This document shows positions 1 through 5,325 of a stretch of DNA of 27,332 nucleotides, piece by piece. Made by a program: the position numbers and the translations under genes. The stretch spans positions 1 through 27,332 of the IMG/VR virus record IMGVR_UViG_3300027971_000185. The stretch is one strand, 5' to 3'. The notes under the pieces were generated by a model that was not told the DNA's origin, made no database searches, and saw only the letters and a program-made list of their open reading frames with translations. This DNA comes from a virus. The first letter of the stretch is position 1. The number at the start of each line of letters is the position of its first letter.

Positions 1-85
1 CGTTTTGCGTGATGTCATAAACGATTTTAGTAATTGTTTTGGCAACCCTTTAAATAATTTTCCTACAATGTGGAGTAAAAAATGA
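1..85 (+). CDS. 3' end of an upstream early gene (partial)
   Basis: The frame starting at base 2 is open through the left edge and ends in TGA at 83-85. The visible C-terminus is about 27 residues and ends MWSKK. The stop overlaps the start codon of the next gene as ATGA, the same junction used many times in this window, which is the main reason to call it real. Too little is visible to name a product. In many phages an ATPase or recombinase gene sits upstream of an SSB/exonuclease pair, but nothing here demonstrates that. Confidence 0.5.
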   Translation, partial: VLRDVINDFSNCFGNPLNNFPTMWSKK

Positions 86-696
86 TTATCAGCGATAACT
101 CAAAAGAATTTAAAATAGCCCCTGCTGGGTTACACATGGCTCGTTTGTATTCAGTCATTGACTTAGGGCATCAAGCTACCGAATGGGCTGGCGAAACCAA
201 GATTATGCACAAGGTTGTATTGACTTGGGAATTGCATGGTAATGACGATCAAGACCAGCCATTAAAAACAGATGACGGTAAACCTTTGATTGTGTCTAAG
301 CGTTATACAGTCAGCCTTGGTGACCAAGCTAGATTGCGTCAAGATCTAGAAGCATGGTCTAACAAAAAAATGACCGCAGAAGATCGCAAAAAGTTTGATT
401 TGCGTAACCTGTTAGACAAATTTTGCATGGTCAACATTACCCATTCAGAAGATGGCAAATACGCCAACATCAGCGGTATCAGCCCTGTACCGTCTGCCTT
501 GCGTAACGCCCAGCCTAACGGTATCAATCCTTGCTTGCATTTTTGGTTAGCTGAGTTTGACCAAGCTAAGTACGACAGTTTGCCAAAGTATTACAAGGAG
601 AAAATTACCGAATCGTCTGAATGGCGTGGTCAAAAAGCTAGGGATGCAGATGCCCCTAAGATTGAAGATGATGTCCTAAATGATGTACCCTTCTGA
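82..696 (+). CDS. single-stranded DNA-binding-like phage protein
   Basis: A 204-residue soluble protein whose acidic C-terminus ends DDVPF. This closely resembles the acidic tip (DDIPF type) by which bacterial SSB recruits replication and repair partners. The body has alternating basic/aromatic and beta-rich stretches (for example WELHGND, SKRYTVSLGD) compatible with an OB-fold, but I cannot prove that fold by eye. The start is supported by GGAG (72-75) six bases before the ATG. It overlaps the following nuclease gene by one base (TGATG), so the two are probably co-translated as a recombination or replication pair. Seen: tail motif and context. Inferred: ssDNA binding. Alternative: another replication accessory protein that uses an SSB-like tip. 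Confidence 0.62.
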   Translation: MIISDNSKEFKIAPAGLHMARLYSVIDLGHQATEWAGETKIMHKVVLTWELHGNDDQDQPLKTDDGKPLIVSKRYTVSLGDQARLRQDLEAWSNKKMTAEDRKKFDLRNLLDKFCMVNITHSEDGKYANISGISPVPSALRNAQPNGINPCLHFWLAEFDQAKYDSLPKYYKEKITESSEWRGQKARDADAPKIEDDVLNDVPF

Positions 697-1457
697 TGAT
701 AGTTAAAGAAAAGGTAGAACAAAATGGCCATTGGTACACTAAAGACGGCACTCCAGCCTACACAACCATCGGCAAAACTGGCGAGCGAGCAACAACGCTT
801 CGGGATGCACGCAAAGACGGACTTTTGCCAAGTGTTACGACAATTAACGGACAGTTATCAAAAGCAGGGCTTGATACATGGAAACAGCAACAAGTCCTCT
901 TAGCCGCACTTACCCTGCCTAGAGCAGATGGTGAGGAAGAACAGGAATGGCTAAAGCGTGTCATGCAAGATAGCCGTGCTACTGGTCGGGAAGCGGCAGA
1001 ACGGGGAACAGCTATCCACGCCATTATTGAGGGTTACTTTGAACAGATGTATTTGCCTGAAAAACCAGCTTACCTTGATGCGATTGATAGTACGCTTAAA
1101 AGTGCGTTTGGAAGTCAGCCGTGGCTTGCAGAGAAGTCTTTTGGGCATCATCTAGGGTACGGTGGCAAATGCGACTTAATGGCTAAACCGATCAACGGGC
1201 AGGGTACTGGGTTCATTGTTGACTTCAAAACAAAAGACACGGACTTGGATAAAGTTGATGTATATTTTGAACATGAAATGCAGTTAGCGGCCTACCGTGA
1301 AGGACTAGGCTTGCCCTCTGCTCGCTGTGCCATCGTATTTGTCAACGGAACGACTAATCAAGTAAAATTGATTGAAATAGAAGAACCCCAGCTTCAAAAG
1401 AGTTGGGAGTGCTTTCAACATTTGTTAAGGGTCTATCAGATCAAGAACAATCTTTAA
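696..1457 (+). CDS. PD-(D/E)XK exonuclease (RecB/Cas4/lambda-exonuclease-like)
   Basis: A 253-residue nuclease-fold protein. The N-terminal half carries GTAIHAIIEGYF (about residues 104-115), the helix with a conserved His (H108) and Glu (E112) seen in RecB-type nucleases. The core is GGKCDLM with D160, then IVDFKTK with D176-x-K178, the PD-(D/E)XK signature. QLAAY at 196-200 matches the Q-x3-Y motif of the same superfamily. These residues should bind two metal ions and cut DNA processively. Coupled to the SSB-like gene upstream by a one-base overlap, it probably resects DNA ends for single-strand annealing recombination or processes replication intermediates. No annealing protein is visible in the window; it may lie to the left. 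Confidence 0.85.
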   Translation: MIVKEKVEQNGHWYTKDGTPAYTTIGKTGERATTLRDARKDGLLPSVTTINGQLSKAGLDTWKQQQVLLAALTLPRADGEEEQEWLKRVMQDSRATGREAAERGTAIHAIIEGYFEQMYLPEKPAYLDAIDSTLKSAFGSQPWLAEKSFGHHLGYGGKCDLMAKPINGQGTGFIVDFKTKDTDLDKVDVYFEHEMQLAAYREGLGLPSARCAIVFVNGTTNQVKLIEIEEPQLQKSWECFQHLLRVYQIKNNL

Positions 1458-1650
1458 TTCCTTCACGGGAACGGGGGAAACGCAAGGAGTACCCCAACTT
1501 ATTTAAGGTCTGTGCATTTTCAGCCAGTTAAAGGTTTGCAAACCGCCTATTTTTAGGGCGTTAAGCCGCCATAGTAGGATGCAGTAAGTTAGGGTTTTTG
1601 CGGCTTTCCACCTAACAGCTAGTAACTGCCAAATACTGCCCGTTGTTTTT

Positions 1651-1679
1651 TTGCATCTTAGGGTATGTCCCTATTAAAT
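1651..1679 (+). promoter_or_regulatory. candidate early promoter for the rightward small-gene operon
   Basis: TTGCAT at 1651-1656 (four of six matches to the sigma-70 -35 box) is followed 17 bases later by TTAAAT at 1674-1679, inside a fully AT stretch that also offers AATAAT at 1677-1682. Transcription would start near 1688 and give a leader of about 70 nt before the gene at 1756. A weaker alternative is TTGCAT at 1685-1690 with TAAACT at 1708-1713, also 17 apart. Confidence 0.42.
1659..1673. promoter_or_regulatory. operator-like dyad TAGGG-N5-CCCTA
   Basis: Perfect 5-bp arms, TAGGG (1659-1663) and CCCTA (1669-1673), flank a 5-nt centre. The dyad lies in the spacer between the proposed -35 and -10 boxes, where a bound repressor would block RNA polymerase. 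The repeat is seen; binding is inferred. Confidence 0.35.
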
Positions 1680-1689
1680 AATACTTGCA

Positions 1690-1707
1690 TTGTTAAGATA
1701 GCTTAAC
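1690..1707. promoter_or_regulatory. dyad GTTAAG-ATAG-CTTAAC, shared with the right control region
   Basis: Perfect 6-bp arms at 1692-1697 and 1702-1707 around ATAG. The 17-mer starting at 1690 recurs at 26174-26190 with one C/G change. It sits at or just after the predicted start of transcription of the early promoter, a typical repressor position. No regulator gene is identified in the window. Confidence 0.45.
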
Positions 1708-1755
1708 TAAACTGGTGTTACTCAATAACGAGTGAGATAGAAAAAAGGAAACAAA

Positions 1756-2112
1756 ATGAAAAAATTAAATTACAAAGCAGTATGTTTTTCATGCAAACAA
1801 GGCGAGCAAGACAATATTCCCGCTCAATGGTATGTAACTGGGCACGATGGCAATAAGCCTTTTAAAGGCTATGTTTGTGATGACCATTACGAAATGCTTG
1901 CAACAGAAGATATGATTAAATCAGAGCAAAACATTGACTTAGATTCTATTGTTTCTTATCACACAGGTTTTAAAACTTTTGATGCAATGGTTAAAAGTGC
2001 AAATTATTGCTACACACCAACACTTAGAACTGATGTAGTACCTGAACTTAAAATTGTTCGCCAAGCATTTAATGACAAAATGGCTGAACTTGGTTTAGAA
2101 AACAGAGCTTAA
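1756..2112 (+). CDS. small protein with CxxC/CxxH zinc-finger-like cysteines
   Basis: A 118-residue protein of unrecognised family. Near the N-terminus it has CFSC (about residues 10-13), followed by YVCDDHYE with C-x2-H about 30 residues later. This spacing would suit a single zinc-binding treble-clef or ribbon module. The remainder is mixed and soluble with no membrane segment. The ATG is preceded by AAGGAAAC (good Shine-Dalgarno). It is the first gene behind the candidate early promoter and is closed by its own intrinsic terminator, so it is likely expressed early and strongly. A DNA- or protein-binding regulator acting on the host is a reasonable guess but not shown. Confidence 0.72.
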   Translation: MKKLNYKAVCFSCKQGEQDNIPAQWYVTGHDGNKPFKGYVCDDHYEMLATEDMIKSEQNIDLDSIVSYHTGFKTFDAMVKSANYCYTPTLRTDVVPELKIVRQAFNDKMAELGLENRA

Positions 2113-2118
2113 TTAACC

Positions 2119-2141
2119 AGCCCCTACGGGGGCTACTTTTT
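2119..2141 (+). terminator. intrinsic terminator after the first early gene
   Basis: AGCCCC (2119-2124), loop TACG, GGGGCT (2129-2134), then AC and a run of five T (2137-2141). A 6-bp GC-rich stem with a tetraloop seven bases past the stop codon at 2110-2112. The next gene begins at 2159, so some readthrough or another start is needed for the downstream genes. Confidence 0.75.
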
Positions 2142-2158
2142 AAAAAAGTGAGATAGAC

Positions 2159-2386
2159 ATGAGCAATAATTATTTATTTTCAATGTATGTTGGTGATACC
2201 TACCTAGATGTTTACGGGTATATAGACAAAGACGAACCTAGCGTTGGTCATGTAGGCGGCATAGAAATAGAAGATGTTTGCACCTGCGACACTAAAACAA
2301 GCGTATGGGAAATGATCCACGCACTCAATTTTGATAAATTTAACGAACAGGCTCAAATGGCTTGGTCAGAACGGAACGACAAATGA
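2159..2386 (+). CDS. small acidic hypothetical protein
   Basis: A 75-residue soluble protein rich in Asp, Glu and aromatic residues (DTYLDVYGYIDKDE). It has a C-x-C pair (CTC) in the middle and no recognised domain. The start lacks a strong Shine-Dalgarno sequence, but AGTGAGATAGA immediately upstream is an exact copy of the 11 bases in the leader of the gene at 1756. Its stop overlaps the lipoprotein start as ATGA, implying coupled translation. Small acidic early phage proteins often act as host-takeover inhibitors or DNA mimics; that is only a possibility here. Confidence 0.65.
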   Translation: MSNNYLFSMYVGDTYLDVYGYIDKDEPSVGHVGGIEIEDVCTCDTKTSVWEMIHALNFDKFNEQAQMAWSERNDK

Positions 2387-2634
2387 AATATTTACTACTA
2401 TTTACCCCTTTTGTACTAGCCGCTTGTAGTTCTTTTGACCCACCCAATGTCAGCCTAGAAACTGATAAACAGGCTTTTCACATGAGCCGCCAGCAGGTCA
2501 TACTAGGTATTACAGAGTGTGAAGAAGCTGGTACACGCCCCGTAGTCATTACGGCAAAGCGTAGGATTAACGGCATTATGAGTGATGTACCCGTAGAAGT
2601 TACCTGTAACCCACGCTACAAAATATTTCACTAG
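2383..2634 (+). CDS. phage-encoded lipoprotein, possible superinfection exclusion factor
   Basis: An 83-residue precursor starting MKYLLLFTPFVLAAC. The start has a Lys then a hydrophobic stretch and a lipobox LAAC with Cys15 as the lipidation site. Ser16-Ser17 after the Cys favour outer-membrane sorting rather than inner-membrane retention. The mature part (about 69 residues) has two further cysteines (ITECEE, VTCNP) that could form a disulfide in the periplasm. I chose ATG 2383 because it overlaps the previous stop as ATGA and gives a proper signal peptide; an upstream GTG at 2362 would add a spurious N-terminus. Small phage lipoproteins of this kind are known as superinfection exclusion proteins (Cor/Llp type) or outer spanins. 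Lying on the early strand away from the lysis cassette favours the former; neither is proven. Confidence 0.72.
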   Translation: MKYLLLFTPFVLAACSSFDPPNVSLETDKQAFHMSRQQVILGITECEEAGTRPVVITAKRRINGIMSDVPVEVTCNPRYKIFH

Positions 2635-2643
2635 GAGATAAAC

Positions 2644-2736
2644 ATGAAAGAGTTTATTCAAGGCGGTTTAGTAGCTATTTTGATCTGTGTCATTGTGTTT
2701 GGTACTAACTACTTAATGCACGGGTATGTAATATGA
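2644..2736 (+). CDS. 30-residue single-pass membrane peptide
   Basis: The ORF encodes M-K-E-F-I-Q-G-G, then a hydrophobic stretch (about residues 9-25, LVAILICVIVFGTNYL), ending HGYVI. It is preceded by AGGAG with ideal spacing (2634-2638 before ATG 2644), and its stop overlaps the next start as ATGA (2733-2736). The strong ribosome site and coupled junction argue that it is real despite its size. One transmembrane helix is likely. It lies directly behind the lipoprotein, so a joint envelope function is possible. Confidence 0.66.
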   Translation: MKEFIQGGLVAILICVIVFGTNYLMHGYVI

Positions 2737-2972
2737 AGCCAGTAGCTTATGCCATGTTTAGGGATGGGGAGTATTACGATGCTATTCACCCTGACGAATA
2801 TGTTAAAACGGCAGGGGAGTACGATACGCCCCTTTATACCTACACCCAGCCAAAAGATTTAACAGATCAAGAAATAGACGGTTTAATCGCGGATGTTGCT
2901 GAAAAGCCTACAGATGAAGATTTGTACGATTTTGCCAAAGCAATATTAAAAAAGGCACAGGGTGAGGGTTGA
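2733..2972 (+). CDS. small acidic hypothetical protein (PVAY...TPLYT type)
   Basis: A 79-residue protein starting MKPVAYAMFRDGEYYDAI with TPLYTYTQP in the middle and an acidic helical C-terminus. Short proteins with a PVAY start and a TPLYT motif recur in phages of Gram-negative hosts, but I know of no assigned function. Starts by ATGA overlap with the membrane-peptide gene and ends inside the start region of the next gene. Confidence 0.7.
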   Translation: MKPVAYAMFRDGEYYDAIHPDEYVKTAGEYDTPLYTYTQPKDLTDQEIDGLIADVAEKPTDEDLYDFAKAILKKAQGEG

Positions 2973-3429
2973 ATTGTCAAAACATGAGTTATTCCTATGC
3001 GAGTACTTCGGTACTATGCGTAGGAAAAACGCCATGCAATTTAACTTTGACAGGCAAGTCAGTAAGCAAGACCCATACGAAATGGATATAGACGGGTTTA
3101 AGGGTGAGTATTTGGTAGCCAAGTATTTAAACTTAATGCCCGACTTTTCCATCAATCAAAAGAAAAACCCTGCCGATCTTAAAACCGCTGGTGGCAAAAC
3201 TATAGATGTTAAATCTACCCGTAATAAAGAGGGTGATGTGTATGTCACCGAATACCACCGCAAAAATCCTTGTGATTTTTACATTCTGATAGTTTTAGAC
3301 GATGATGGTGGCGATATTGTGGGCTGGGTGGATAAGGATGAGTTATTTCAGTTTGCCACGCTACAGGGCGGTTCTCACCCTTCCTACAGGTATGACCGCA
3401 AACGACTTAATCCTATAAGCCAGTTTTAA
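2962..3429 (+). CDS. PD-(D/E)XK-like nuclease candidate
   Basis: A 155-residue protein. GFKGEYLVAKYLNL gives a helix with Glu49. ADLKT supplies Asp72 and, ten residues later, IDVKST supplies Asp82-x-Lys84. The order Glu, Asp, D-x-K followed by a hydrophobic strand (FYILIVLDD) fits small PD-(D/E)XK endonucleases or resolvases. The start is uncertain: GTG 2962 has AAGG seven bases before it, and TTG 2974 has GAGG six bases before it and lies just after the previous stop. Last gene of the rightward module; its stop shares TTAA with the converging endolysin stop. The function could be Holliday junction resolution or host DNA degradation; inferred from the motif only. Confidence 0.62.
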   Translation: MRVELSKHELFLCEYFGTMRRKNAMQFNFDRQVSKQDPYEMDIDGFKGEYLVAKYLNLMPDFSINQKKNPADLKTAGGKTIDVKSTRNKEGDVYVTEYHRKNPCDFYILIVLDDDGGDIVGWVDKDELFQFATLQGGSHPSYRYDRKRLNPISQF

Positions 3430-3845
3430 GCTATTTGTTTGCCGCTTTTAAGGTCTGTAAGGGTTAACCCACCCGTGTACTGAAAGTGAGCAAGTTCTTT
3501 AAATGTACGCCAGCGACCTGCCCACTCTAATCCTGCTTGTTCACCTAGTTTACCGATTTGATCCCATACAGGGTGTAGACCATCCCAATTAGGTTTGCCG
3601 TTGACCATAGGTACGACATCAACAGCACAACGCCAGTTATGCCAAGAATCACCAGCTTTAGCATTGGTAACCACCTTTCCTGCCGTAGTCCTACCTTGTT
3701 CGTATAACGCCTGTTGGGATTCATTATCGCGATAAGTTGATGTAACTAGCAGGTCAATACCCTCATCCTTGCACAGACTTAAAAAGAGTTCTACACGCTT
3801 TTTTGCTGGGGGAATCAAGTCATCAAGGTTTCGGCTGTTTATCAT
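3426..3845 (-). CDS. endolysin, M15 family D-Ala-D-Ala carboxypeptidase/L-Ala-D-Glu peptidase
   Basis: A 139-residue zinc peptidase that cuts the peptide part of peptidoglycan. STYRDNESQQALYEQGRT (about 36-53) is the substrate-side motif typical of the family. SWHNWRCAVDVVP gives the zinc ligands His69 and Asp76, and AHFQYTGG gives the third ligand His120 with Glu117 nearby. The usual Gly of SxHxxGxAxD is Arg here, as in a common phage subgroup. It has no signal peptide, so it needs the holin encoded just upstream; the two overlap as ATGA. Full length and intact. Confidence 0.9.
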   Translation of the reverse strand: MINSRNLDDLIPPAKKRVELFLSLCKDEGIDLLVTSTYRDNESQQALYEQGRTTAGKVVTNAKAGDSWHNWRCAVDVVPMVNGKPNWDGLHPVWDQIGKLGEQAGLEWAGRWRTFKELAHFQYTGGLTLTDLKSGKQIA

Positions 3846-4336
3846 TTTAATGGGGTGGAATTATGAATCATATGGTCTTTAGCTTGACTGCTGGCAGAAC
3901 TACCAAAATAAAAGGCAATAATACCTGTCCAAGCAGTTCCTAAAGAACCAAGCATTAACATTAAGGCATCAGAAGTTGCAATTTTGCCCGACATTAAACC
4001 ACCTAAAATACCAAAAAATCCAATAGTTACAAGAATAGACAATACAGGGGGAATAAAAGATTTAGTTTCTTTTTGTAGTTCACGGGCAGAAGCACGATCT
4101 TGCACAGCTAATTGTTCAAAATTTAGACCTAATTCTTGTTCTTGACGCTGAAGTTCAATTTCAGCTTGTTTTAAGCTGGCAATTTGTTCAGCGTTTAATT
4201 TACCGCTATCAATAACATCTTGAACTTTATCTTCGTCTATTCCAAGTGCCTTAGATACGGCAGTAACGGCAAGACCAGCTAAAGGGCCACCCAAGCAAGT
4301 AGCAATTGTAGGTACTAATTTAGCTAACCAATCCAT
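3842..4336 (-). CDS. holin, 3-TM type
   Basis: A 164-residue membrane protein. The N-terminal hydrophobic segment (about residues 8-32, GGPLAGLAVTAVSKALG) precedes a charged Q/E/A-rich helix (DVIDSGK...ASLKQAEIELQRQEQEL). Two clear membrane helices follow (about 94-115 and 124-148, the second ending AFYFGSS). This layout and the terminal FYFGSSASS motif match the phage 3-TM holin family. It should form the inner-membrane lesion that releases the endolysin. The start ATG follows GGGGAT at a workable distance. It is transcribed with and overlaps the endolysin gene. Confidence 0.85.
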   Translation of the reverse strand: MDWLAKLVPTIATCLGGPLAGLAVTAVSKALGIDEDKVQDVIDSGKLNAEQIASLKQAEIELQRQEQELGLNFEQLAVQDRASARELQKETKSFIPPVLSILVTIGFFGILGGLMSGKIATSDALMLMLGSLGTAWTGIIAFYFGSSASSQAKDHMIHNSTPLK

Positions 4337-4853: not shown

Positions 4854-5063
4854 TCATTTACTTGTGAAGTAATGTGCAATAAAGCCAACGATGGAACTAA
4901 TGCCTGATACCACCATCATGCCGACCCAAAACCCACCCCTGCCTTTATTAGCTAAAGCAAGCAATTCTTCCATGCCTTCTTCTAGCTTATCTACTTTTTG
5001 AGTTAATTGGTCAACCTTTTCCCAAAGCTGACCGTATTTAACAGGGTCGATTTCAAAAGACAT
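4854..5063 (-). CDS. small coiled-coil/TM protein, XhlA- or holin-accessory-like
   Basis: About 69 residues: MSFEIDPVKYGQLWEKVDQ, a heptad-rich coiled coil (VDQLTQKVDKLEEGMEEL), then GRGGFW and one membrane helix (VGMMVVSGISSIVGFIAHYF). A short amphipathic coil plus one C-terminal membrane helix resembles XhlA/hemolysin-type accessory proteins that work with holins. Start choice: ATG 5063 directly after the previous stop, versus TTG 5072, which has AAGG at better spacing. The ATG gives the cleaner N-terminus. Its product and that of the next gene downstream, both membrane-tethered coils, may interact. Confidence 0.7.
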   Translation of the reverse strand: MSFEIDPVKYGQLWEKVDQLTQKVDKLEEGMEELLALANKGRGGFWVGMMVVSGISSIVGFIAHYFTSK

Positions 5064-5064
5064 A

Positions 5065-5325
5065 TTAGCCAATCAAAGCCTTAACTTCATCTTGAGTTAA
5101 ACCTAATGCGGCTAATTTAGCTAGTGCAGATGTTTTTGCAGATTCTTGTGTTTGTTTGTCTGTTATAGCTTTAGCCTGCAATCTACCTAATTCAGCATCA
5201 ATTTGTTCATCGGTTACAGGGGCAGTTGTTGGATTAATCCAAAGCACTTCTCCTGTGTCGTTATTAAGGACATATTCAGCACCTTCAACCAAAGAAGATA
5301 TTGCCGTAGCTTTATCGATAATCAT
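5065..5325 (-). CDS. small fibre-associated protein (possible fibre assembly factor)
   Basis: 86 residues starting MIIDKATAISSLVEGAEY and ending in a helical SALAKLAALGLTQDEVKALIG. Proteins with this C-terminus are common directly downstream of phage tail-fibre genes. The gene overlaps the 234-aa fibre gene by ATGA, consistent with co-production as a chaperone or small subunit. The function is inferred from position only. Confidence 0.72.
   Translation of the reverse strand: MIIDKATAISSLVEGAEYVLNNDTGEVLWINPTTAPVTDEQIDAELGRLQAKAITDKQTQESAKTSALAKLAALGLTQDEVKALIG

Follow-up and report, generated by a model that had tools for sequence, protein, structure and literature searches.

A putative two-part envelope module of freshwater phages, probably an early guard of the infected cell rather than a lysis device

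Gene order around the lipoprotein gene

The window, by which we mean the whole stretch of DNA analysed here, is the 27,332-base record of a freshwater phage in which small genes form a rightward block (82-3429) that meets a leftward block of lysis and structural genes. In the rightward block, a gene for an 83-aa lipoprotein (2383..2634, plus strand; ATG at 2383, stop at 2634) is followed by one for a 30-aa membrane peptide with a single helix (2644..2736, plus strand), which reads MKEFIQGGLVAILICVIVFGTNYLMHGYVI. An initial sequence-only reading had announced this peptide together with an AGGAG ribosome site, and both are indeed there, the site overlapping the lipoprotein stop codon (2632..2643, plus strand; cacTAGGAGataaacATG) at a 9-nt spacing that is common to most relatives. 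On the other side, the TGA of a 75-aa ORF of unassigned function (2159..2386, plus strand), found in part of the relatives only, overlaps the lipoprotein ATG by 4 nt, and the stop of the 30-aa peptide overlaps the start of the next gene. Since starts, stops and ribosome site overlap all along this series, the 75-aa ORF, the lipoprotein, the peptide and the next gene look translationally coupled; for the lipoprotein and the peptide, it is the overlap of stop codon and AGGAG that suggests it.

Upstream of the pair lie a PD-(D/E)XK exonuclease-like gene of the recombination module (696..1457, plus strand; PF12705, E 7.8e-5) and, ahead of it, a gene of 204 aa (82..696, plus strand), labelled SSB-like purely from its position and giving no Pfam match at 0.01. 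About 300 bases between the exonuclease gene and a 118-aa ORF (1458-1755) contain no obvious gene; Rfam gave no match there or anywhere else in the window. A terminator-like hairpin precedes the lipoprotein group (2119-2134) and is weak as a signal, with 9 such sites in the window versus 5.2 ± 2.2 expected, and the promoter scan of the window did not rise above shuffles. After the pair, a 155-aa gene (2962-3429), also found in part of the relatives only, matches PF19161 (DUF5843, 5.5e-6) and phrog_18407 (2.4e-8), and its product may be nuclease-like. Convergent to the lipoprotein operon are the genes for the endolysin, an M15 peptidase (3426..3845, minus strand; PF13539, 1.6e-11; phrog_2649, 2.2e-27), and for a probable holin-type membrane protein of the lysis cassette (3842..4336, minus strand), a label we infer, the matched family being one with no assigned function (phrog_1544, 5.7e-18). 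The lysis region further encodes a 72-aa protein (4854-5072, minus strand) that is coiled-coil-like at its N-terminus and helical at its C-terminus; kept in many relatives, it found no match in the family search and presumably resembles XhlA-type proteins.

Recombination genes adjoin the lipoprotein gene in unrelated layouts: RecT and YqaJ in Limnohabitans phage DC33 (L081), an ERF gene downstream in L094, DUF669 with a weak PD-(D/E)XK match nearby in a prophage that carries an integrase (L165), and PD-(D/E)XK beside it in both L144 and the window. The endolysin gene, for its part, is convergent to the lipoprotein gene and downstream of it in 73/73 loci where both were found. This placement, adjoining recombination genes and facing the endolysin, suggests that the lipoprotein is expressed early in infection.

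The lipoprotein family

The lipoprotein reads MKYLLLFTPFVLAAC and continues SSFDPP, with a signal peptide at residues 1-14 and the predicted lipid-bearing Cys15; the lipobox LAAC and Ser at +2 are as had been claimed from the ORF. Across the family, 21 of 31 aligned members and 17 of the 20 fused proteins (see below) have Ser at +2, and none of either set has Asp there (0/31 and 0/20). With LAAC, Ser at +2 and no Asp there, the sequence carries a sorting signal of the outer-membrane type. Invariant over the 31 aligned sequences are, among others, Cys15, R36, C46, R52, K59, G64, V73, C75 and P77; the two further cysteines, C46 and C75, are able to form a disulfide. For the mature domain a helix (36-48) and two strands (51-62 and 65-77) are predicted, and two AlphaFold2 models of members about half identical agreed on a core in which a single helix is joined to a long hairpin of two strands, with a pLDDT of about 80-92 in the core (81-92 in one of the models) and low confidence before it. 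Searched against the PDB, the lipoprotein sequence profile returned one match only, at E 1.9, Foldseek with both models returned none at E 0.001 or below, and VIA-align reached Z 3.0 at most; BFVD gave two matches below 0.001, both from uncultured Caudovirales and one of them 149 aa long, like the fusions.

The window lipoprotein had no match in Pfam and weak matches only in PHROG, none of them convincing. Weak PHROG matches of the L081 and L082 lipoproteins to spanin and Cor families vanished once the signal peptide was removed, with the exception that L081 still matched phrog_16998, a family of unknown function (0.0069). In IMG/VR, 119 relatives were confirmed with a single-sequence query and at least 236 stretches with an alignment query, and the best 80 of the 119 and the best 80 of the 236 were kept for analysis; many of the 80 kept window-clade loci (L001-L080) are near-identical and do not count as 80 independent cases. 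An annotated phage collection contained the family in three records, at 37-43% identity: Limnohabitans phage DC33, phage zth2-2 and a Manatee Spring record. The genome collection scan gave two relatives, a MAG contig and a prophage of Polynucleobacter sp. UB-Piko-W3, the latter with an integrase about 4 kb off and a tRNA-Arg gene beyond the integrase. As to the records themselves, DC33 (PQ492659.1) is filed under Inoviridae, the filamentous phages, and looks like a wrongly filed tailed phage because it encodes RecT, YqaJ, an L-Ala-D-Glu peptidase and an embedded Rz/Rz1-like pair. A 41-kb IMG/VR record (G001; L220, L221) has similar but non-identical copies of several late genes near both ends; its assembly may therefore be chimeric, or the population mixed.

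Purifying selection on the mature domain is strong, with a dN/dS of 0.075 (0.058 in the core). The corresponding values are 0.125 (helix peptide), 0.115 (endolysin), 0.069 (204-aa gene) and 0.129 (exonuclease), all from unequal numbers of rows per gene (20 to 75). Given this and the 119 IMG/VR relatives, the lipoprotein gene is not a chance ORF; both genes are real, and the lipoprotein belongs to a conserved family that is not in the family libraries searched. In a tree built on 53 columns only, one branch (26 rows, 99) sets apart the clade with separate genes, and another (17 rows, 91) the lipoproteins that stand alone. The excerpts available from the literature on exclusion lipoproteins, Limnohabitans phage lipoproteins, early small lipoproteins and spanins do not mention the family.

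The membrane partner and the fused form

All 80 window-clade loci (80/80) have a one-helix ORF whose start is no more than about 13 nt from the lipoprotein stop: 76 were recognised by pattern, two by eye (L015 and L079, of 28 and 26 aa), and the remaining two (L040, L055) start as the 80-aa type and run off the contig. The partner comes in two forms, one of about 30 aa, which is that of the window and consists of the helix and a short tail, and one of 80 aa, in which a charged domain (RMIDKGWGD..Y) and a basic run precede the same helix. The 30-aa peptide of the window corresponds to the C-terminal membrane segment and tail of what is elsewhere an 80-aa protein. By the positive-inside rule for membrane-protein topology, the basic run before the helix would place the domain of the 80-aa form in the cytoplasm and the tail in the periplasm.

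A separate scan with the 80-aa form identified 54 loci, with the lipoprotein directly upstream in 43 and absent from that place in 11 (L170, L175-L179, L204-L206, L217, L219). Most of these 11 have a soluble gene of 92-102 aa directly upstream instead, and in five of the 11 records, searched over the available sequence, no lipoprotein was found. Conversely, phages with a standalone lipoprotein, such as L081 and L082, have no helix partner beside the lipoprotein gene. Taken together, the standalone lipoproteins and the 11 of 54 loci with no adjacent lipoprotein indicate that neither part needs the other everywhere. In a distant relative, a different membrane peptide, of 43 aa, directly follows the lipoprotein and is itself followed by an exonuclease (L143:6289-6420).

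One locus, L151, encodes both domains in one frame. A scan with this ORF gave 41 loci, 20 of which (L312-L331, L312 being the L151 record again) have a single ORF of 148-155 aa; five others have a shorter extension (L333-L335, L351, L352), five a normal N-terminus (L336-L340), one has no readable ORF (L332), and in ten (L341-L350) the N-terminus was not judged. The order in the fusions is GWGD domain, transmembrane segment ending in the lipobox, and lipoprotein domain, with the lipobox Cys present in 20/20 and the motif LTGC in 14. Residue 1 is the only start after a ribosome-site-like sequence in 19 of the 20, L314 having a second such start, a GTG 32 codons in. The N-terminal domain is homologous to the 80-aa protein in all 20 (E 7.6e-15 or better, the best of 1000 shuffled decoys scoring 0.15), and the profile comparison gave 99.5%. 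No second copy of either part occurs in the stretch examined at the 20 fusion loci. No phage lipoprotein extended by a comparable N-terminal domain is described in the excerpts available from the literature on extended lipoprotein signal peptides.

The same two parts are therefore fused in one phage group and split, in the opposite order, in another, which is evidence that they work together. The pairing of lipoprotein and peptide had been proposed from the window, and it gains strength from the 20 of 41 loci of another phage group that hold both domains in one ORF; the two genes would accordingly be read as one unit, a two-part envelope module. A tandem duplication followed by reciprocal loss would be consistent with this opposite order. 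For the window itself the link runs via the 80-aa form, since the 30-aa peptide has no GWGD domain and a membrane helix is all that it has in common with the fusions. Possible, though on the unlikely side, is a joint reading in which one cut by signal peptidase II turns the fused precursor into two working products: the inner-membrane remnant of the cut fusion (GWGD domain and helix) would be a functional partner, the phage group of the window would obtain both products from separate genes that lie in the reverse order, and the 30-aa peptide would be the minimal, helix-only form of the released piece.

Envelope protection, its alternatives and known systems

The pair probably serves to guard the envelope of the infected cell early in infection, and not to lyse it. 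The role we favour, while holding it as tentative, is envelope protection of the Llp/Cor/Rtp45 kind: acting on the outer membrane from its periplasmic face, the lipoprotein would have a conserved target, and a block of the receptor or of entry would be the likely effect. Made early with the recombination genes, the lipoprotein would receive its lipid, reach the inner leaflet of the outer membrane and owe its stability to a disulfide between Cys46 and Cys75; it would bind a conserved outer-membrane or periplasmic host component, so that the infected cell, and later its debris, would become unfit for further phage adsorption or DNA entry. The helix peptide would sit in the inner membrane with its N-terminus inside and support or extend the effect at the second membrane. 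Two sets of observations support this: the outer-membrane lipobox, recombination neighbours, convergent endolysin, purifying selection, conserved pair and fusion on the one hand, and, on the other, the size, lipid anchor, Cys pair and predicted beta-hairpin, all like those of Llp and Rtp45. It is weakened by the lack of detectable homology to Cor and of a BLASTP alignment with Llp, by a location away from the receptor-binding locus, by the loci in which either part does without the other and by conservation despite the fibre mismatch described next.

The gene does not lie beside a receptor-binding protein gene; its neighbours are recombination and lysis genes. In the records G001 and G004, the mature lipoprotein is 88% and 83% identical, respectively, to that of the window, and only about 65 of the 383 residues of the window's fibre C-terminus match, at 39-48%. 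A lipoprotein kept at 83-88% while the fibre C-terminus is not shared suggests a conserved target rather than a matched receptor and, with the gene's location, argues against a narrow, receptor-matched role. The same facts would fit an early take-over of a conserved envelope machine of the host (for example Lpt, Bam, Lol, Tol-Pal or a peptidoglycan hydrolase), in which the lipoprotein would inhibit or redirect a host component so that the cell stays whole, or of metabolic use, up to the moment of lysis; other phages would be excluded secondarily or not at all. The conservation of a single mature domain in phages whose recombinases and hosts differ, the low core dN/dS and the conservation of the lipoprotein where the fibre C-terminus is not shared all speak for it; nevertheless, neither sequence nor fold (no PDB match at the Foldseek threshold given above) points to a host target, and we rate this explanation as possible, if rather doubtful.

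A block to DNA entry in the periplasm is unlikely. Here the pair would stop later genomes after adsorption, for instance by inhibiting a tail enzyme or the entry channel, much as T4 Spackle works with Imm: Spackle, as described in the passages available, is likewise an early periplasmic protein, of about 75 aa and with a disulfide, that acts together with another exclusion gene, so that an early protein facing the periplasm with an inner-membrane partner resembles that system. However, Spackle is an alpha-helical bundle that binds tail lysozyme and has no lipid anchor, whereas a helix and beta-hairpin are predicted for the window lipoprotein. It is more improbable still that the pair is selfish or specific to a lineage, plays no part at the envelope during infection and persists for some other reason; neighbours do come and go around the lipoprotein, but purifying selection and its presence in many different phages stand against such a view.

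Finally, the pair might form an unusual two-component spanin, with the lipoprotein as o-spanin and the helix peptide as i-spanin, and it does share with Rz/Rz1 the combination of an inner-membrane protein and an outer-membrane lipoprotein. The claim that no conventional spanin is visible in the window agrees with our lipobox scan, and no other credible lipoprotein was seen there or in G001 (41 kb) and G004 (45.5 kb); the i-spanin family phrog_2466 was matched in 0/11 window-clade records even at E 10, by a test that is loose, as it rang in 9/14 control genomes. According to the passages available from one survey, no spanin was found in 91 of 677 phages, and some o-spanins, of the T4 family, lack a proline-rich part and possess a beta-alpha-beta core with two Cys (PMC6139136). 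Yet an Rz-like i-spanin, counted as a homologue of that of DC33 or zth2-2, is also present in 18 of 162 lipoprotein loci, a total that leaves out L084, which duplicates the window and would make it 163. In 17 of the 18 an Rz1-like lipobox ORF is embedded, and in L081 and L082 PHROG spanin families match both Rz/Rz1-like parts. In these 17 loci the lipoprotein is not the sole outer-membrane lysis lipoprotein of its phage, while in the window clade no second one was seen; because true spanins coexist with it in the same loci, the lipoprotein would do another job, at least there. Moreover, an N-terminal helix followed by a long periplasmic coiled coil is found in neither partner form: the window peptide has about 8 residues after its helix, with no room for a periplasmic spanin domain, and the soluble part of the 80-aa form, before the helix and with the basic run, falls on the cytoplasmic side. 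Nor is the lipoprotein encoded with the endolysin, which is convergent to it. A unimolecular spanin was considered and rejected, as it needs an N-terminal lipobox and a C-terminal transmembrane segment and the fusion shows the reverse order. Coexistence with Rz/Rz1-like spanins in 17 loci and the shortness of the peptide largely exclude the spanin alternative, which had been raised in the sequence-only reading and which we now consider very improbable; the lipoprotein pair is probably not a spanin.

Small phage lipoproteins that disarm outer-membrane proteins are already known from a few coliphages. What is new here is the coexistence of the lipoprotein with true spanins and the fused and split architecture. 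If the envelope-protection reading is true, it would add a widespread, sequence-unrelated family in phages of freshwater bacteria, one linked to recombination genes, not to receptor-binding genes, and coupled to an inner-membrane partner; should its target prove conserved, the family may lead to an envelope machine whose control is necessary for many phages. The fused and split forms provide a natural test of whether the remnant of a signal peptide can be a functional protein.

Of the known systems, T5 Llp is in many respects alike: it is a small phage lipoprotein with a Cys pair and a C-terminal TC motif, its gene lies on its own strand and is followed by four small ORFs annotated as single-membrane-span, and the title of a 1994 paper describes it as expressed early. 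However, llp adjoins the receptor-binding gene oad, whereas the window gene adjoins recombination genes, and BLASTP of the mature window lipoprotein against mature Llp, as single sequences, gave no alignment. The Cor lipoproteins (N15, phi80 and T1 relatives) also share features with the window protein, N15 Cor being a 78-aa lipoprotein with a Cys pair; ahead of the TC end a VxIYxxRKxN-like stretch recurs. In contrast, N15 cor lies among tail genes, and hhalign of the mature domains gave only 6.3%. A comparison that included the signal peptides had reached 92.7%, driven by the lipobox part, and the Cor relation it implied was rejected. According to the passages available on these systems (PMC9586334, PMC12685063, PMC7677548, PMC11990801), small siphophages encode their known exclusion factors at the receptor-binding locus; FhuA is what Llp acts on, and LptDE is the target of Rtp45 of phage Rtp. 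Rtp45 is, like the window lipoprotein, a small periplasmic lipoprotein with a disulfide and a long hairpin, a likeness drawn from those descriptions rather than from a comparison of sequence or fold, and differs in being about 6 kDa. Superinfection exclusion by receptor masking is still the best analogue for what the pair may do.
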